A stretch of 24,015 nucleotides of DNA from IMG/VR virus record IMGVR_UViG_3300009684_000172, positions 1 to 24,015 of that record; one strand, 5' to 3'. Below the pieces are notes generated by a model. It saw only the letters and a list, made by a program, of their open reading frames with translations, searched no databases and was not told the origin of the DNA. A program made the position numbers and the translations under genes. Every line of letters starts with the position of its first letter. Position 1 is the first letter of the stretch. This DNA comes from a virus. Below, one piece after another: positions 3,428 to 14,711 of the stretch.

Positions 3428-4397
3428 AAAGCGCGTGCTGGCCGTGGCCTCCATGCCAAAGAAGTTGGCTTTCGTCAAGTCTCGCGCCTCTGGCGGCGGA
3501 ATGAAATTCAAGGGCTACGCGGCCCGCACCAACTCGATGTCTGGCGATCTCGGTGGCTTCCGCGAGGTACTGGCGCGTGGCGCTTTCGACGCCGTGCTGG
3601 CGCGTGGCGCCGACGTCGTGCTCAACCTCAACCACGACAACGGGCAGCTCTTGGCCCGCACATCCTCCGGCACGCTCCGACTCGCAAGCGATGAGCAGGG
3701 CCTGCGGTTCGAGGCCGACGCACCCGACACGCAGCTGGCCCGCGACACGGCCACGCTCATGCGGCGCGGCGATCTCACCGCCGCGAGCTTCGCGTTCACA
3801 GTGGCGCCGAAGAACGAAGCCTGGTCGGCCGACGAGCAAGGCCCGGTACGCACGATCCGCGAGGTCAACGACCTGTTTGACGTCAGCATCGTCACCAGCC
3901 CGGCCTATCCAGAGGCCAGCGTAGGCCTGCGGTCGCTTGAGGCATGGCGCAGCGCGCGGGCGCTGATGGTGCCCACCGACAACGAAGCGGGCGAGATGGG
4001 CTACCCGAGCATGACCATCAGCATCGACTACGACGGCACCTTTGCGGCGGCGCCCGGTCTGTGGCTGTCGTTCATCGAAGAGGCTACGGAGGACGGCTGC
4101 ACCGTGATCATGACCAGCCGGCGCGAGGACACGCCCGACAACCGCATGGAGATCCAAGCGGCCCTGGGCGAAGACTCCGACGTTGCAGCGGTGATCCTCT
4201 GCGGCCCAGCGTCCACCAAGCGCGACGCGGCCACGGCAGCCGGTTTCACGGTCGACGTCTGGATCGACGACACGCCGGCCACGGTCGACTCCGTGCCGGC
4301 CCAGCGGTCTGCGGTCCGCGTCGGCACCAAGCTGGCTGCCGCCCGGGCCTTGGGCGCTCTTGCCCGTAGGAGGCTTCTTGATGTCTGCGGCGGCTAA
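3408..4397 (+). CDS. Prohead protease fused to a HAD-type phosphatase domain
   Basis: Residues 1-185 are an HK97-type (U35) prohead serine protease, which matures the capsid by cleaving the N-terminal delta domain of the major capsid protein. It has KFKGYAAR, the NLNHD histidine (H76), the AASFAF serine (S127), and LFDVSIVTSPAYPEA, where D158 sits at the usual acidic position. Residues 203-290 look like a small capless HAD hydrolase: motif I DYDGT (D207, D209), motif II TSR (236-238), motif III K271, motif IV WIDD (D287, D288). At 329 residues it is longer than a typical stand-alone protease. The reading frame is continuous, with no stop between domains. An internal ATG at 3996 or 4011 could make the HAD part separately, but neither has a strong ribosome site. 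The start has AGGAG ten bases upstream. The substrate of the HAD part is unknown. Confidence 0.88.
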   Translation: MRPLSVEKRVLAVASMPKKLAFVKSRASGGGMKFKGYAARTNSMSGDLGGFREVLARGAFDAVLARGADVVLNLNHDNGQLLARTSSGTLRLASDEQGLRFEADAPDTQLARDTATLMRRGDLTAASFAFTVAPKNEAWSADEQGPVRTIREVNDLFDVSIVTSPAYPEASVGLRSLEAWRSARALMVPTDNEAGEMGYPSMTISIDYDGTFAAAPGLWLSFIEEATEDGCTVIMTSRREDTPDNRMEIQAALGEDSDVAAVILCGPASTKRDAATAAGFTVDVWIDDTPATVDSVPAQRSAVRVGTKLAAARALGALARRRLLDVCGG

Positions 4398-4545
4398 CTG
4401 CACCCAGTGTGGCGAGCGTCTGCGCGTGGAATCCTCGCGCCGGTGCGGTGCCGCGCAGCAGTTGCAGTACACGTCGTGCCCGGCCTGCCGGGCTAAGGGG
4501 CGCAGGATCGTCAGCCTACAGGCCATCTGGAGACGCAAACGATGA
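4381..4545 (+). CDS. Small zinc-ribbon-like protein
   Basis: A 54-residue basic protein with two CxxC knuckles, C7-TQ-C10 and C33-PA-C36, plus C22 between them, consistent with a zinc ribbon or treble-clef-like fold. It ends in a basic tail (WRRKR). A perfect AGGAGG lies seven bases before the ATG, which decides the start. The gene overlaps the end of the protease gene by 17 bases. Its stop overlaps the next start in an ATGA. Zinc ribbons of this size often bind nucleic acid or act as protein adaptors, but no function can be assigned. It opens the unusual block between protease and capsid genes. Confidence 0.7.
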   Translation: MSAAANCTQCGERLRVESSRRCGAAQQLQYTSCPACRAKGRRIVSLQAIWRRKR

Positions 4546-4889
4546 GCACAATCGAAGATATGGCCGGGCAGGTCCGCGCGTTCCTCGACGACGCCAGGGC
4601 GAAGGCTGCCGGCGGGCTCACGGTGGCCGAGTTCGGATCTCTGCTGGTCGCCCTGCTGCGGCTGGCGGTTGCCGAGCTCGACGCTGTGCAGCAACTGGCA
4701 GGGCCAGAGAAAAAGGCAATCGCCCTTGAGGCCGTGGCGGCGCTCTTCGATAGCGTCGCCGTCTACTGCGTGCCGATGGCTACCTACCCCGTGTGGCTGG
4801 CGTTCCGGCCGCTGATCCGCTCAACCGTGCTGGCTCTCGCCAGCGGTGCTCTTGAATCGCTCCTGCCTCTTGTGAGGGCCAACGCATGA
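4542..4889 (+). CDS. Unknown helical, possibly membrane-associated protein
   Basis: A 115-residue protein of unknown function, almost entirely helical by composition. A hydrophobic amphipathic helix covers residues 31-50 (FGSLLVALLRLAVAELDAV). A conserved-looking GPEKKAIALEAVAALFD follows at 54-70. The C-terminal half (71-112) is rich in hydrophobic residues with PVWLAFRPLI and VLALASGALESLL. It could be a peripheral membrane protein or an oligomeric helical bundle; strongly hydrophobic uninterrupted spans are short, so true membrane insertion is unclear. It is coupled by ATGA overlaps to the zinc-ribbon gene upstream and to the membrane-anchored gene downstream. Confidence 0.65.
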   Translation: MSTIEDMAGQVRAFLDDARAKAAGGLTVAEFGSLLVALLRLAVAELDAVQQLAGPEKKAIALEAVAALFDSVAVYCVPMATYPVWLAFRPLIRSTVLALASGALESLLPLVRANA

Positions 4890-5152
4890 TCTGGCTTTGC
4901 ATTGCAATCGCCGCTGCCGTGTATTTCTGGCCCGGCGCTCCTAAAGAGCAACCGTCGCTGTTCGCGTCCGTCTCGGCGCCCCCGGCGGGGCCGGCGTCAC
5001 CAGCCGCCAAGAAGCCCGGCTTCCGCGACGCGCAGGACGCCATGGCCGTGGTGCGCAACCGGCTGGCATCGACTGAGTGCCTGACCGAGCCCGTCGCGCA
5101 GGCGATCAACGTGCTCACGCTGGCTCTCATGGCCGGCTCTGACAAGGAGTAG
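4886..5152 (+). CDS. Small N-terminally membrane-anchored protein
   Basis: An 88-residue protein of unknown function. Residues 1-16 (MIWLCIAIAAAVYFWP) form a short hydrophobic anchor with no cleavage site that I can be sure of. A Pro/Ala-rich linker (17-42: KEQPSLF...PPAGPASPAAKK) leads to a small helical domain (45-84) with DAMAVVRNRLASTECLTEPVAQAINVL. The architecture of anchor, flexible linker and small helical head suggests a protein tethered to the inner membrane with its head on one side. The start overlaps the previous stop (ATGA). The next gene begins two bases after the stop. Confidence 0.65.
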   Translation: MIWLCIAIAAAVYFWPGAPKEQPSLFASVSAPPAGPASPAAKKPGFRDAQDAMAVVRNRLASTECLTEPVAQAINVLTLALMAGSDKE

Positions 5153-5154
5153 AC

Positions 5155-5616
5155 ATGGACCGTAGACACGTTTTCGCGGCTGCGCTGGTCGCCTGCGGGC
5201 TTGTGGCCTACGCCATCGAGCACCGCCCGGCACCAGTACCTACGCCGGAACCCGGTCCGGCGCTGCTGAACCTGCGCGGCAAGGCCATCGGCCCGACTGC
5301 GTCAGCCGATCTGACCACGTTTTCCGCCCTCTGCGAGGAGATCGCGGCATGCCTTGAGTGGGACGGCAGCCAGCCCGAAGAGCAGCGCCGTATCAAGACC
5401 GGCGCCGCCCTGGAGGATCTGCGAGTAGCGGCCCGGGAGGCCCGCTGCCGTGGCGTCAGTCTGGGCGCAAAGCAACCGCACATCCGCGACGCCGTCAAGA
5501 AATTCCTCGACGAGGCTGCCGGCACGTCTGGCGATTCGTTGACGCCCGAAGAGCGGGCGCTGTGGGTCAATGCGTTCCGCGAAGTCGGGAGGGCCGCCGC
5601 TGATGCAGCCAAATAG
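5155..5616 (+). CDS. Membrane-anchored or secreted helical protein, unknown
   Basis: A 153-residue protein of unknown function. It starts with a signal- or anchor-like stretch: basic DRRH, then the hydrophobic VFAAALVACGLVAYAI (6-21), followed by a Pro-rich spacer (PAPVPTPEPGPA). The remainder is helical and charged, with EEQRRIKTGAALEDLRVAAREARCRG and a C-terminal segment LTPEERALWVNAFREVGRAAADAAK. Its layout of anchor, Pro-rich linker and helical domain repeats that of the preceding 88-residue protein. An AAGGAG lies just before the ATG. The last 14 bases overlap the start of the papain-like peptidase gene, so the two products are probably made together. Confidence 0.68.
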   Translation: MDRRHVFAAALVACGLVAYAIEHRPAPVPTPEPGPALLNLRGKAIGPTASADLTTFSALCEEIAACLEWDGSQPEEQRRIKTGAALEDLRVAAREARCRGVSLGAKQPHIRDAVKKFLDEAAGTSGDSLTPEERALWVNAFREVGRAAADAAK

Positions 5617-6715
5617 CCCAAGGCCCTACGATCCTCTCTCATGGCGGGCCATCGCCGGCGGCATCCTCGTCGCCTGCTGCGCGTGGCTGGCAACTCGCGC
5701 CCTGTGGCATGCCGAGCGGGCGATTATCGCTGACGGCCAGTTTGGATACGTTCCCGATCCAGCCGGCACGCAGCAATTCTTGGCGCAGCTGGAAAAGCCG
5801 ACGTTCCGCCAGGCGGCGGCCGAGGTCATCGCCGGGGCCAGGCAGAAGGATACCTACCTGTATCGCGCTGCCGACAAGGCTCACAGGGCCGTCTACGGCA
5901 AGTCGTTTGGCCCGTGGAATCAAGGGGCTGCCGGCACCTGCGTGAGCTTTGGGTGGGGCATGGGGGCCTACATAGGGCAGTCGATCGAATGGCAGACCGG
6001 CGAGCAGGAGCGCCCGCCGCTGCTGGTGGCCACAGAGCCTATCTATGGCGGCAGCAGGACGGCAGCACGGATGCCACCGGTGCGGCTGGCTGGATATTCC
6101 GACGGCTCCTACGGCGCTGCCGCAGCCCGGTGGGTGAGCGGTTTGAAGAACGGCAGGGGCGGCATCCTCTACCGCGAAAAATATGGCAACGTCGACCTCT
6201 CGACCTACTCAATCCCGCTTTCCCGCGAGTGGGGGAATAGTGGCGTGCCAGACGCCCTGGCGGTGCTGGCGAACGACCACACGGCACGGGCCGTGGCGCT
6301 GATCGAGACATGGGAAGGGCTGTGCGCGTCGCTGGAATCGGGCTACCCGGTGCCGATCTGCAGCAACGTGGGTTTCGCCGCAACCACCACGCGAGACGCT
6401 GATGGGTTCCTACCAAGAGGCGGGCAATGGAATCATTGCATGGTGGCCGTAAGCGTGAAATACGCCAAGAACTCTGGCGCGAACGGTGAGCCTGCAATGA
6501 AGCACCCGCGCGACGGCGTTCTAATTATGAACTCGTGGGGCGCGACTTGGTGCGGCGGTGGCAAGCACCCTGTCGACCAGCCTGACGGGTCATTTTGGAT
6601 CACGCGCCAAGACTCCGAGGCGATCATTCGCCAGGGCGACAGCTTCAGTATCGGCGGCGCTACCGGATTTCAGTATCGGGATCTGCATAACGGCAACTGG
6701 ATGATGGCACTATGA
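5603..6715 (+). CDS. Membrane-anchored papain-like (C1-type) cysteine peptidase
   Basis: A 370-residue protein with an N-terminal membrane segment (about 15-31: WRAIAGGILVACCAWLA) and a papain-fold domain. Catalytic elements appear in the correct order: the oxyanion glutamine and nucleophile in NQGAAGTCVSF (Q107, C113; papains have NQGxCGSCWAF), the histidine in WNHCMVAVSVKY (H278), and the asparagine in IMNSWGATW (N310), followed by GSFWITRQ. The usual disulphide Cys two before GSC is replaced by Ala. The Cys-to-His distance (165 residues) fits a C1 peptidase. The start at 5603 is preferred over 5570 because GGGAGGG precedes it. It lies among membrane-protein genes in the head cluster. It could be a lysis enzyme, a surface-layer or host-protein protease, or a virion processing enzyme. 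The substrate is unknown. Confidence 0.8.
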   Translation: MQPNSPRPYDPLSWRAIAGGILVACCAWLATRALWHAERAIIADGQFGYVPDPAGTQQFLAQLEKPTFRQAAAEVIAGARQKDTYLYRAADKAHRAVYGKSFGPWNQGAAGTCVSFGWGMGAYIGQSIEWQTGEQERPPLLVATEPIYGGSRTAARMPPVRLAGYSDGSYGAAAARWVSGLKNGRGGILYREKYGNVDLSTYSIPLSREWGNSGVPDALAVLANDHTARAVALIETWEGLCASLESGYPVPICSNVGFAATTTRDADGFLPRGGQWNHCMVAVSVKYAKNSGANGEPAMKHPRDGVLIMNSWGATWCGGGKHPVDQPDGSFWITRQDSEAIIRQGDSFSIGGATGFQYRDLHNGNWMMAL

Positions 6716-6966
6716 ACCAGAAAACTTTGATTGCCTGCGTTCTCTGCGCCGCCGCCGGCTGGTGGCTGGCCTCCTCACCTGCGTCTCCGGTGCGGCCTGA
6801 GCCACAGCCACAGCGGCCGGTGCTGAAGTTCCTGTCTCGCATGGCCAGACTCGGGCTATGGGTGATGCTGGCCGGCGAGCAGGCGCCGCAGCCGGTCGAA
6901 CAACTGGTCAAGGCACCGCCGCGCGACGCTGACGGCAACCCGATCCTCGATAATGGGAGATGGTGA
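6712..6966 (+). CDS. Small protein with N-terminal signal or anchor
   Basis: An 84-residue protein of unknown function. Residues 1-20 (MNQKTLIACVLCAAAGWWLA) look like a signal peptide or membrane anchor. A Pro-rich spacer follows (SPVRPEPQPQRPV), then a short hydrophobic amphipathic helix (LKFLSRMARLGLWVMLAG). The end reads PPRDADGNPILDNGRW. The start overlaps the stop of the peptidase gene in an ATGA, so translation is coupled to it. A Cys at position 9 or 12 could in principle be lipidated, but the surrounding residues are not a clean lipobox. Confidence 0.62.
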   Translation: MNQKTLIACVLCAAAGWWLASSPASPVRPEPQPQRPVLKFLSRMARLGLWVMLAGEQAPQPVEQLVKAPPRDADGNPILDNGRW

Positions 6967-6970
6967 TCAA

Positions 6971-7150
6971 ATGAAAAAATACGTTGGTGGAATGCTCTGC
7001 GCTCTTATCCTCATGTCGGCCGCGCTGGCGGTGGCTGGCATTTGGGGAGCCGTCGACGAAGAGACTGTCTGGCAGATGATCTTCACGTTCGGCGTGGTAG
7101 CCGCCGCATCTGGAGCCCTCGGGAAGGCCACGGAGATTTATTTCCCATGA
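6971..7150 (+). CDS. Holin-like protein with two membrane segments
   Basis: A 59-residue protein with two predicted membrane spans, about residues 5-24 (YVGGMLCALILMSAALAVAG) and 35-52 (MIFTFGVVAAASGALG), separated by a short acidic turn (AVDEET). A basic start (MKK) precedes span one. Size and topology are those of small class II-like phage holins, which form pores in the inner membrane at lysis. The family could not be identified. The ATG at 6971 is preferred over 6953 because GGGAGA precedes it. It lies directly after the papain-like peptidase cluster and overlaps the next gene (ATGA). No other holin candidate is visible in the window. Confidence 0.6.
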   Translation: MKKYVGGMLCALILMSAALAVAGIWGAVDEETVWQMIFTFGVVAAASGALGKATEIYFP

Positions 7151-7356
7151 CGCTCTTGGAATCAATCGTCGCACTACTGACGTCGTTCTCCGCTGACCCA
7201 CACGCCGAAGCGCTGGAGCACCCACGCGCAGCAGCTGCTGTCGCTGTGGCATACGCGAGTCTTGCGCCTGAGCCTGCGAAGGCGAAGGAAGAGAAAAAGG
7301 CAGTGCCATGTACCACGGGCACCTGTAAGCCGGCGCCGGCGTCCGTTCTACGGTAG
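7147..7356 (+). CDS. Small protein with a C-terminal cysteine motif
   Basis: A 69-residue protein of unknown function. It starts with a short amphipathic helix (MTLLESIVALLTSFSA), then an Ala-rich segment (HPRAAAAVAVAYASLA), a Glu/Lys patch (AKAKEEKKA) and a tail containing PCTTGTCKPAP. The two cysteines five residues apart could form a disulphide or bind metal. The start overlaps the stop of the holin-like gene (ATGA). The stop is followed by a 72-base gap before the major capsid gene, so this is the last gene of the inserted block. Confidence 0.55.
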   Translation: MTLLESIVALLTSFSADPHAEALEHPRAAAAVAVAYASLAPEPAKAKEEKKAVPCTTGTCKPAPASVLR

Positions 7357-7428: not shown

Positions 7429-8646
7429 ATGTCTAACGCGCTCCGCCTGCTCCAGGACGACGCCGCATCGATCGCCACGCAGATCGATGAACTCCGCCAG
7501 CTGACGCCGGCCAACGAGACCGAATCGGCTTCCATTGCCGAGCGGATCGACGGGCTTGTGACTCGCTCCGAGAAGATCCTGCCGCAGATGGAGCGGGAAA
7601 AGGCCCTCGACGACCGGATCAAGAACCTTCGGTCGACCGTGGTCGACGCCTGCGAGCACCGCGACGCCCTGGCCGCCAACGAGGTTCCGACCGTTGAGGC
7701 TGCCGGATCGGTGGCGAAGCGGGCATTCGGCAGCACTGCCGAAGCTCGCAAGGTGGGCTTGGGCCTGCGGGCAATCGCCCGTGGCGAAACTCGCACGATG
7801 GGCGAAGGAAACACCAACTACGGTTCCGACTACGTCGTGACCCAGTTGTATGGAGCGGTGATCAACCTGCTGAAGTACACGTCGCAGGCGTTCCAGGTGG
7901 CGCAGACCTTCGAGACCAACAGCAACGTGATCACGCTGCCGAAGGTCGGGGAAATCACTGCGGCTTTCGTGGCCGAAAGCACCGACAGCACTGACCAAGA
8001 CATCGCGACCAGCGGTGCGACTTGCACCGTGCGTGATATGCGGGCCAGCGTGCCAGTGTCCAACAACCTAATCGAAGATTCGCCGGTCGATGTGGCTGGC
8101 CTGATCGCTTCCCGTATCGCGTATGGCTACGCAAAGGGGATCGACGGCGTGTGGCTCAAGGGGTATTCCTCAGGCGGCATCTCGGTCACGGGCCTCTACG
8201 ACGCCATCACCGGCTACAACTCCGGCAGCAACGTCGTGACCGTGGCCAAGACGGCGGCCACCACGGTTGGTAACTTTGCCGACCTCGTCGGCAAGATCGA
8301 TCCCTACGCCATCAATCCTTCGTGGGTTGTCGGCAGTCTCGGCTGGGCTGAAATCATGAAGGTCTCGGCCACGCTGCTCTCTGCGAACATCTCGCAGGGC
8401 ACGGTGGCCAGCCTGTGGGGCGTGCCGGTTCGCAAGGCGTACAACATGCCCGCGAATGTCTACGCGATTTACGGTGATTTCGGGTTCACATCCGCCATCG
8501 CCTACAAGCCCAACGGGCTGCAGATCACTGCTGCCCGCGAGTTGCTGATCAAGAAGAATGCGACCCTGTTCGTGGGCATCCAGCGGTTCGGCGTCGCGAA
8601 TCACGCGCCCGAATTCGGTGGCGCTCTCGTCAAGGCCACTGTCTAA
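7429..8646 (+). CDS. Major capsid protein, HK97 fold
   Basis: Shell protein of the head, 405 residues. Residues 1 to about 95 are a charged helical delta-like scaffolding domain (LQDDAASIATQIDEL...IKNLRSTVVDACEHRDAL) that the upstream prohead protease should remove. The mature part has the usual HK97 pattern: ITLPKVGEITAAFVAEST, RASVPVSNNLIEDS, YAKGIDGVWLKG, INPSWVVGSLGWAEI, LWGVPVRKAYNMP and a C-terminal LFVGIQRFGVANHAPEFGGALVKATV. I chose ATG 7429 over GTG 7393 because GAGGG lies nine bases upstream. The 72-base leader contains a short inverted repeat (TGGCT/AGCCA, 7362-7379). A separate promoter or processing site there is possible but not clear. Confidence 0.94.
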   Translation: MSNALRLLQDDAASIATQIDELRQLTPANETESASIAERIDGLVTRSEKILPQMEREKALDDRIKNLRSTVVDACEHRDALAANEVPTVEAAGSVAKRAFGSTAEARKVGLGLRAIARGETRTMGEGNTNYGSDYVVTQLYGAVINLLKYTSQAFQVAQTFETNSNVITLPKVGEITAAFVAESTDSTDQDIATSGATCTVRDMRASVPVSNNLIEDSPVDVAGLIASRIAYGYAKGIDGVWLKGYSSGGISVTGLYDAITGYNSGSNVVTVAKTAATTVGNFADLVGKIDPYAINPSWVVGSLGWAEIMKVSATLLSANISQGTVASLWGVPVRKAYNMPANVYAIYGDFGFTSAIAYKPNGLQITAARELLIKKNATLFVGIQRFGVANHAPEFGGALVKATV

Positions 8647-11982: not shown

Positions 11983-12291
11983 GTGTTCCTCTACCGGCTC
12001 GCCCTAGAGCACGGCATTTGGGACGTCGAGGCGTGGAAACAACAGATCACGCTGGGGCAGGTGAGGCGGTGGATGGCCTACTGGCGAGTCGAGCCATTCG
12101 GCGATCAGTGGCGCCGGGCGGGCCGGGCGGCGTTGGTGGCCAGTGGCGGCAAGGTGGAGCCGAGCGCAGAGGAAAAGTTTCTGCCGAGCTACAAGGCACC
12201 GGAACCACGGCAGATGAGCGATGAAGAGCAGATGGCCGAGTTGATGTCGATTCCGGCTTTTGCCAAGCAACTGAAAGCGCAGGGCTACTGA
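11983..12291 (+). CDS. Tail assembly chaperone, T domain (made by -1 frameshift)
   Basis: A 102-residue frame that supplies the T domain of a G-T fusion. The pattern LYRLALEHGIWDVEAWKQQITLGQ then RRWMAYWRVEPFGDQW matches the tail-chaperone T domain, where AYxxxEPFG is characteristic. The T domain normally recruits the tail tube protein to the chaperone-coated tape measure. The listed GTG start is nominal; the ORF is in the -1 frame relative to the G gene and is open back through the slippery site, so translation from 11956 onward by frameshift is expected. The stop overlaps the tape measure ATG (TGATG). Confidence 0.82.
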   Translation: MFLYRLALEHGIWDVEAWKQQITLGQVRRWMAYWRVEPFGDQWRRAGRAALVASGGKVEPSAEEKFLPSYKAPEPRQMSDEEQMAELMSIPAFAKQLKAQGY

Positions 12292-14711
12292 TGGCGACGA
12301 TCGGCAAAGTAGCTGCAGTGTTCTCAGCCTCAACGTCTGGGCTGACGGCCGGCGTGCGCGACGCCTCAAGATCGTTCCGGCAGCTGGGCGGCGACGCCTC
12401 TTCTTTGGGTGCTGCATTCGCCAAGCTGCAAAACATCTCTGGCCGTGGCGTTGGCGAAGTCGGCCCAGCGGCAGGGATCGCGGCGGCCCGGCTGCAGGTG
12501 ATGCAGGGGCTGGCCGAGCGGCTGCAGTCGTCGCTCGCATCGGGATCGATCTCGGCCGAGGAATTCGCCCGCAAGATGGAGTTGATCCGCTCTTCGGCTG
12601 AAACGCTGGCTGGCACTCTGGTGCGAGGGGCTGCTGTCACGGAGCAATTTCGCACGGCCCAAGAGATCCACGCGGCGACAACCGCAGAGCTGTCGCAGTT
12701 GATGCAGGCCGGCGCCATCTCGGGCGACACCTACGCCCGTGCGATGGCTGCCGCCGGGCTTGAGCTTGCGAACCAAGATGGTTCAGCGAAGCGGGCCGCC
12801 GAGTCGGCAGCCGCCGTGGCGGCATCACAGGCCAAGGCACAATCGGAACTCGACGCCAAGATGGAGCGCGGCCGGTCGATCTCGGAAGAGGTGGCAACCG
12901 CCCAAGAGAAGCACGCGGCGACGACCCGCGAGCTTACGCAGCTGCTGGGCGTCGGCGCTATCTCCGAGGAGGCCTTTGACCGCGCCGTTGCCAACGCTGC
13001 CGCTACGCTCTCCGACGCCACAGGCGAGACCAGGGCGATGGCGGCGGCGATGGACGATCTGACGGCCATGCACCGCGAAGGTGCCAGCGTAACGCAGAGC
13101 GTAGCCACAGCAGAGGAACGGCACGCGGCGACCGTGGCAAACCTCGACCGGCTCCTGCGTGCCGGGGCGATCGGGCAGGAGGCCTACAACCGGGCCGTGA
13201 GCAAGTCGGAAACCGAGATGGCCGGGGCGGCCACCGGCGCCAGAAAGATGGCCAGCGCGATCGGCACGGCCGACAACGCCCTTTCAAAGATCAACAGCAA
13301 GCTCAATGCTCTGATCACCATCCAGGCGGCGCAGCTGTTCGGCTCGATCGCGTCGGCCGCGAGCAACGCAGTCCGCTCGCTCATCGGCATGGGGCAGGCC
13401 GAGTCGGAGGTGATTGACCGCACCAGCAAGCTAGCCGACCGGCTTGGCATGACCTACGGCGAACTCTCCGGGCTCAGTCTCGCTGGGCAGCTGGCCGGCG
13501 TCAGCCTTGAGTCGATCGGCAAGGCGGCGACGAAGGGCGACATCGCCTTCGCCAAGCTGGCCGAGGGCTCTGCTGTAGCGCAGGCGGCGTTTGGCCTGGT
13601 GGGCCTGACCTTGGAAGACCTCAACGGCAAGACCTCTGCGGAGCGATTCGCGGCGATCTCCGACGCTATCGCAGCGCTGCCCACCGAGGCAGAGCGTGCC
13701 CGGGCCGCCGTCTCGCTCTTTGGCAAGGCCGGTGCCGAACTGCTGCCGCTGTTCAACGAAGGCAGCGCCAGCGTAGCCGAGACGGCCAAGCAGGCCGAGC
13801 GCCTCGGGATCGCTCTCACCAACGAGCAGAGCGCGTCGGTCGAGGCCATGAATGATTCGTTTGACCTTGCGGGCGCGACGATCTCAGGCGTGATCGGGCA
13901 GGTTACGGCCTACCTCGCCCCTGCCCTGCAGTCTGTATCCGACACGTTCGTCAAGCTGGTGGGCGACGTCGGAGGCGCCACGATTGGGCAGACGATTGGT
14001 GCCGGAATCCTGCGTGGGGCTGAGTATCTCGCGACGATTGCTGACGCATTCATCGCCAGCGGCATTGAGCTTTGGAACTACGCCTCGTCTGTCGGAGCAG
14101 ACTGGACGGCTATTTGGGATTACGCGCAGCGGACGGCAGCGTTTTTCGCTGGCGTGGGCGACGCATTCCAAGCCGGTGTCGGCTTCGCCATGCTGGGCAT
14201 CACCGGCCCGATGGAGTTGATCCTGACCGGTATCAAGGCGGCAGCAGGCCTGCTGGGCTTTGAGTCTGCGGCGCTTGATGCTGCCGTCGCGGGAATGAAT
14301 GGCTTCAACCAGGGGATCGCCAACGGGATCACGGACAACATTGCGAGCGCTTCGGCAAACTTTGGCAAGGCCTTTGGTGATGAGCAGCAGAAGGCCAGCG
14401 CCGGAGCCGCCGGTCCTATCGCCTCTGGCCTGCGTGACGCGATCGCCAAGGCCAAGGCCGACGCAGCTGCCCCGAGCACGGCCAAGCCGGTGACGTTGCC
14501 CGGCAAGGAAGAGAAGACATTCACCGGCACAAGCGCGTCAGAACTCAAGGCGACCGACAGCAGGTCGAAAGAGGGCATCTCCGAGATGTTCCGGCTGATG
14601 CGTGGCGAGAAGGACGACGTCCCGCAGAAAAGCCTTGAGATGCTCACGCAGATCCATATGGATCTCGTCGACTCCCAAGAGTTCCAGATGATTGAGATCG
14701 GAGCTAACTGA
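12291..14711 (+). CDS. Tail tape measure protein
   Basis: At 806 residues this is the longest product here, in the right place after the chaperones. It sets tail length and is ejected ahead of the DNA. The N-terminal third (1-330) is Ala-rich and helical, with a repeated ~40-residue unit. Residues 335-365 (LNALITIQAAQLFGSIASAASN) and 640-685 (FAMLGITGPMELILTGIKAAAGLLGF) are hydrophobic and could insert in the host membrane. In between, the pattern LADRLGMTYGELSGLSLAGQLAGVSLESIGKA and AAVSLFGKAGAELLPLFNEG is typical of siphovirus tape measures. The C-terminus is charged and helical. By the usual rule of about 0.15 nm per residue, a tail of roughly 120 nm is inferred. Confidence 0.92.
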   Translation: MATIGKVAAVFSASTSGLTAGVRDASRSFRQLGGDASSLGAAFAKLQNISGRGVGEVGPAAGIAAARLQVMQGLAERLQSSLASGSISAEEFARKMELIRSSAETLAGTLVRGAAVTEQFRTAQEIHAATTAELSQLMQAGAISGDTYARAMAAAGLELANQDGSAKRAAESAAAVAASQAKAQSELDAKMERGRSISEEVATAQEKHAATTRELTQLLGVGAISEEAFDRAVANAAATLSDATGETRAMAAAMDDLTAMHREGASVTQSVATAEERHAATVANLDRLLRAGAIGQEAYNRAVSKSETEMAGAATGARKMASAIGTADNALSKINSKLNALITIQAAQLFGSIASAASNAVRSLIGMGQAESEVIDRTSKLADRLGMTYGELSGLSLAGQLAGVSLESIGKAATKGDIAFAKLAEGSAVAQAAFGLVGLTLEDLNGKTSAERFAAISDAIAALPTEAERARAAVSLFGKAGAELLPLFNEGSASVAETAKQAERLGIALTNEQSASVEAMNDSFDLAGATISGVIGQVTAYLAPALQSVSDTFVKLVGDVGGATIGQTIGAGILRGAEYLATIADAFIASGIELWNYASSVGADWTAIWDYAQRTAAFFAGVGDAFQAGVGFAMLGITGPMELILTGIKAAAGLLGFESAALDAAVAGMNGFNQGIANGITDNIASASANFGKAFGDEQQKASAGAAGPIASGLRDAIAKAKADAAAPSTAKPVTLPGKEEKTFTGTSASELKATDSRSKEGISEMFRLMRGEKDDVPQKSLEMLTQIHMDLVDSQEFQMIEIGAN
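12639..13211 (+). repeat. Three ~40-residue coding repeats in the tape measure gene
   Basis: Residues 117-155, 197-237 and 267-307 share the consensus VATAxExHAAT..L..LL..GAIS.EAYxRAV and recur about every 70-80 residues. A degenerate half-copy (SLASGSISAEEFARKMELI) sits at 81-99. The second half of the unit resembles a SHOCT-like short helical hairpin. The DNA repeats are diverged, so this is an old duplication. Confidence 0.75.

Follow-up and report, generated by a model that had tools for sequence, protein, structure and literature searches.

Seven tightly packed genes (g2–g8, positions 4542–7356), located between the prohead protease and major capsid protein genes of an environmental phage, probably constitute a lysis (host-exit) cassette of Planctomycetota phages in which a papain-like peptidase, g5, replaces the murein hydrolase. 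This reading is drawn from genomic context and from the exclusion of other roles. The window, that is, the whole stretch of DNA analysed here, is a 24,015-bp IMG/VR fragment of an HK97-type phage, with genes for packaging, head, and tail. Eight tightly packed ORFs (4381–7356) separate the S78 prohead protease from the HK97 capsid gene, just as the original prediction had described. The features of this region are as follows.

3453..4397, + strand: S78 prohead protease, left flank (PF04586, 5.1e-42; phrog_80), with a phrog_4919-like C-terminal extension
4381..4545, + strand: g1, zinc ribbon, head-module neighbour outside the cassette, kept directly after S78
4542..4889, + strand: g2, 115-aa helical protein, common to cassettes I and II
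4886..5152, + strand: g3, 88-aa single-TM protein, optional member
5155..5616, + strand: g4, 153-aa protein with an N-terminal TM segment and a C-terminal domain
5603..6715, + strand (start at 5570 or 5603): g5, N-terminally anchored papain-like cysteine peptidase; predicted catalytic residues Q107 (5921–5923), C113 (5939–5941), H278 (6434–6436), and N310 (6530–6532)
6712..6966, + strand: g6, 84-aa single-TM protein with a conserved RPVL..RLAK..LW region
6971..7150, + strand: g7, small two-TM protein, holin-like by architecture only
7147..7356, + strand: g8, small protein with a Cys-containing tail
7429..8646, + strand: HK97-type major capsid protein (MCP), right flank (PF05065, 5e-25)

The zinc ribbon g1 adjoins S78 with either type of cassette (I, as in the window, or II, described below), and also in genomes where the cassette sits elsewhere. 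Since it stays behind S78 regardless of the type or position of the cassette, g1 is assigned to the head module, and the cassette thus consists of the seven genes g2–g8; of the eight-gene block recognised at first, these seven stand as a unit and the zinc ribbon does not belong. The block had also been called inserted, correctly so, because the S78–MCP gap is nearly empty (~210–250 nt) in phages that carry the cassette elsewhere (L013, L057, L232, L245). Of the ORFs in the block, the zinc ribbon is the only one for which Pfam, PHROGs, NCBIfam, and PADLOC gave a meaningful family match, even a marginal one. The C-terminal extension of S78 (window 3993–4397) appears HAD-like by eye and matches phrog_4919 (1.7e-15), a family of unknown function; the S78 proteins of relatives occur both with this extension (~320–345 aa) and without it (~210–245 aa).

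The AlphaFold2 model of g5 (pLDDT 90.3, pTM 0.84) was compared with the PDB using Foldseek, with xylellain (3ois, E 1.1e-8) as the best match, followed by cathepsin proenzymes. A second aligner, VIA, superimposed g5 on xylellain over 244 residues (Z 22.9, rmsd 3.4) and on Cwp84, the S-layer protease of Clostridioides difficile, with a Z of 17.7. Residues Q107, C113, H278, and N310 follow the papain order and are invariant in an alignment of 30 sequences. The model, its C1A matches, and these invariant residues confirm that g5 has a papain-like fold with the papain catalytic residues, as had been proposed earlier, with proteolysis itself being predicted. No Pfam, PHROG, or NCBIfam model matches g5, and 12 members of its family gave no Pfam match at E ≤ 1 and no relevant match among PDB sequences, which weakens the assignment of g5 to the C1A sequence family but leaves its papain-like fold standing. 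While g5 shares the fold and the order of Q, C, H, and N with C1A peptidases (xylellain, the proenzymes of cathepsins B, K, and L, and Cwp84), it is only 12–18% identical to them, lacks a Pfam match, is phage-borne and membrane-anchored, and belongs to a multi-gene membrane cassette. Solitary, non-anchored homologues of g5, with 35–38% identity and no evident phage context, are present in Mucilaginibacter chromosomes (L015, 9857–10780; L016, 9974–10885). In one planctomycete prophage (L301, 8215–8622), a thioredoxin-like CPYC protein is encoded near the papain-like peptidase and could keep such an exported cysteine protease reduced.

In IMG/VR, a profile search retrieved at least 576 relatives, most of their records being fragments; tblastn against INPHARED found none. 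The gene order of the cassette recurs in dozens of independent contigs, and its arrangement is thus not due to chance. In the 67 well-flanked loci (at least 2.5 kb on each side of g5; genes in the GC-rich DNA of relatives were called with a hexamer model), g4 is present in 64, g6 in 62, g8 in 59, g2 in 58, and the optional g3 in 28, a degree of conservation that speaks against passive, unconserved placement. The gene preceding g5, almost always g4, overlaps it in 63 of these 67 loci; g4 is also found in prophages L299–L301. The g2 family, which has no match in Pfam, PHROG, or NCBIfam, is present in 73/92 papain loci, as well as in cassette II and in planctomycete prophages. Homologues of g7 are found in L011, L023–L025, L136, and other loci, and its best match among PHROG holins is not significant (E 0.32). 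Many relatives carry in its place a three-TM protein, g7b, which matches PF04226 (Transgly_assoc/GlsB-YeaQ-YmgE) above the cut-off (3.7e-6), and some, such as G012, have neither. PF04226 is a cellular family linked to stress response, and we know of no member that forms part of a phage cassette.

The position of the cassette varies among relatives. Sampling based on the capsid gene, independent of the presence of the peptidase, gave 79 loci, with cassette I upstream of MCP in 59, cassette II in nine, less than 300 nt in ten, and neither cassette in one (L175, with 759 nt upstream). Three slots are used, namely the protease-capsid interval, the far end of the tail genes behind a dATP/dGTP-diphosphohydrolase-like (dGTPase-like) gene, and the position upstream of TerS. 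At least 12 changes of slot are seen on the g5 tree, which was built by a quick method with SH-aLRT as the sole support measure, and L075 and L081 have near-identical g5 in different slots. The cassette is thus compact, portable, and present once per genome, as lysis cassettes are.

Cassette II was first seen in the same slot of eight capsid-sampled loci. It comprises g2, a 91-aa protein, a 79-aa protein with one TM segment, a 125-aa exported protein, a 289-aa protein, a 258-aa protease, and two membrane proteins of 106 and 102 aa. The secreted 258-aa protein is a trypsin-like protease (Trypsin_2, 6.7e-20). A search with the 289-aa protein returned 64 loci, located between the protease and the capsid, after the dGTPase-like gene, or elsewhere. 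Among the loci retrieved, g5 (147 loci) and the 289-aa protein (71 loci) never overlap, and such mutual exclusion in shared slots argues that cassettes I and II are functionally equivalent, without indicating which function they share. The 77-kb IMG/VR record G014 (L047, L094–L097, L362) has both cassettes, but it is not taken as a case of co-occurrence: the 30 bases at its start are repeated at 36.7 kb, which suggests a concatenation of two related phages. With its motif-like segments NQ.PTHECTCHS and GHAVPW, the 289-aa protein is a tentative candidate for a second papain; its AF2 model reached a pLDDT of only 35, a profile comparison was negative, and no relevant PDB match was found.

In five bridge cassettes (L212, L217, L232, L245, L252), g5 is found together with the membrane partners of cassette II. 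Bridge g5 is untethered, with no TM segment, wherever its N terminus is visible (L212, L232, L245), and a small lipobox lipoprotein comes after it in four of the five. In L212 and L245, TM-less g5 is accompanied by both the lipoprotein and a TM-coiled-coil protein, an arrangement resembling that of an endolysin with spanins; a two-component spanin pair is not evident in the window.

The search for ordinary lysis genes bears out the original observation that no wall hydrolase is visible in the 24 kb, as no family of murein hydrolases turned up in the window. Among records of relatives, Amidase_2 (PF01510), Phage_lysozyme (PF00959), SLT (PF01464), and NLPC_P60 (PF00877) were found in 0/30, and M23 (PF01551), M15_4 (PF13539), and CHAP in 0/16. 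Five relatives assemble circularly, their ends overlapping by 87 or 127 bp, and profile searches, which a divergent enzyme could escape, revealed none of these seven common families in them; a normal endolysin cassette lying just outside the window thus has no recognisable counterpart in the circular relatives. One of the latter, G012 (28,979 bp), carries g2-g4-g5-g6-g8 between the protease and the capsid as its sole cluster of small membrane proteins. Its protein-by-protein Pfam scan showed no wall hydrolase among 25 of 29 families listed, and ten of its unassigned or tail proteins matched no lysis family in PHROGs. No canonical lysis genes were seen in the S78–MCP gaps of L207, L237, and L248. 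The gap of L207, a fragment and a close TerL relative, encodes small TM and secreted proteins and no protease (4754–6921), and is possibly a reduced or different cassette; this protease-free slot counts against the lysis reading, as does the fact that no cassette member is recognisable as a holin by profile.

The nearest genome match is a viral contig within a Planctomycetota MAG. Homologues are present in 12 of 392 Planctomycetota genomes, in three of which g2-g4-g5 lie near a terminase-like gene on large contigs, and in several others amid phage genes, whereas 395 Bacteroidota genomes yielded a single clear homologue, itself solitary, plus two marginal matches. Because of this difference, Planctomycetota are the probable host phylum of the phage family, an assignment made at the family level. 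The family is widespread and undescribed, and most likely infects Planctomycetota, bacteria with an unusual wall.

Of the three roles considered originally, protease-based lysis is the best supported. A lysis module is the closest likeness, because the cassette is compact, near-universal, single-copy, mutually exclusive with its alternative, and endowed with one hydrolase, in phages without a recognisable endolysin. What was computed comprises the fold and catalytic residues, the conserved order of overlapping genes, movement as a unit among three slots, exchange with cassette II, and no recognisable hydrolase in circular relatives. Late in infection, g5 would act in the periplasm, tethered by its N-terminal signal anchor, with g4, g6, g8, and the small two- or three-TM protein as partners, whereas the divergent untethered versions would be released by a small membrane protein. 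By cutting protein components of the planctomycete envelope, g5 could cause the cell to rupture. Instead of murein, its substrate may be a protein of the wall or envelope, since planctomycetes appear less dependent on peptidoglycan than other bacteria. In Planctopirus limnophila, many peptidoglycan-synthesis genes are dispensable, and Cys-rich YTV proteins have been suggested to influence wall rigidity (PMC10632474), which makes a protease plausible as a lysin. We tentatively propose that exported proteases, papain-like in cassette I and trypsin-like in cassette II, form a new class of phage lysis system that would breach a protein-dependent planctomycete envelope from genomes without a murein hydrolase.

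Papain-fold murein hydrolases do exist, the NlpC/P60 and CHAP enzymes of the papain superfamily among them, and g5 might likewise be a papain-fold enzyme turned to murein cross-links, a peptidoglycan endopeptidase within a lysis cassette. The contextual evidence is the same for this alternative. Peptidoglycan is part of the planctomycete sacculus, which lysozyme can attack (PMC4432640), so that murein may be a target and its hydrolase would also be useful to the phage. The nearest structures of g5 are, however, protein-cleaving C1A enzymes (xylellain, cathepsins, Cwp84) and not NlpC/P60 or CHAP, and the interchangeable cassette II bears a trypsin-like protease, which makes this alternative unlikely. 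Somewhat less likely still is envelope remodelling or superinfection exclusion, with the exported protease cutting host surface receptors or secretion components. Export and membrane anchoring of the proteases and the occurrence of the cassette in prophages would suit such a role, but exclusion genes are typically patchy, while the cassette is near-universal in the capsid family as one of two equivalent versions; none of the eight block proteins matches PADLOC defence models, and the phages would be left without any recognisable lysis module. An extra virion-processing or entry protease tied to the head or tail, a role that would fit the location in the window, with the prohead protease gene on one side and the capsid gene on the other, is highly improbable, as in many relatives the cassette is far from the head genes with the S78–MCP gap empty, and its parts include proteins with a TM segment at the N terminus and small partners that span the membrane several times.

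The proposed lysis cassette resembles holin-endolysin-spanin cassettes, including those with SAR endolysins, in being compact and co-directional, in combining one hydrolase (anchored or untethered) with several small TM proteins, and in being portable between slots and present once per genome. It differs in having no murein hydrolase, a hydrolase of protein-protease fold, and no profile-recognisable holin. It can also be likened to the pseudomurein endoisopeptidases PeiW and PeiP, viral lysins of cysteine-peptidase type acting on a non-standard wall, although these belong to another family and to viruses of archaeal hosts. To our knowledge, no lysis system built on protein-cleaving proteases has been described earlier, and a literature search on planctomycete phage lysis and phage papain-like lysins found nothing relevant. 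Neither papain-like enzymes nor planctomycetes come up in the main text of a 2025 survey covering viral lytic proteins (PMC12596118).

Environmental viromes contain the cassette in abundance, although its core proteins lack Pfam, PHROG, and NCBIfam models, and it provides a marker for phages of the under-sampled phylum Planctomycetota. If it is indeed a lysis system, it would offer an independent biological probe in the long-running debate on what holds the planctomycete wall together, as well as a means of lysing hosts for which few genetic tools exist. Elsewhere in the window, the tape measure protein (12291–14711) contains internal repeat segments that are ~39% identical.
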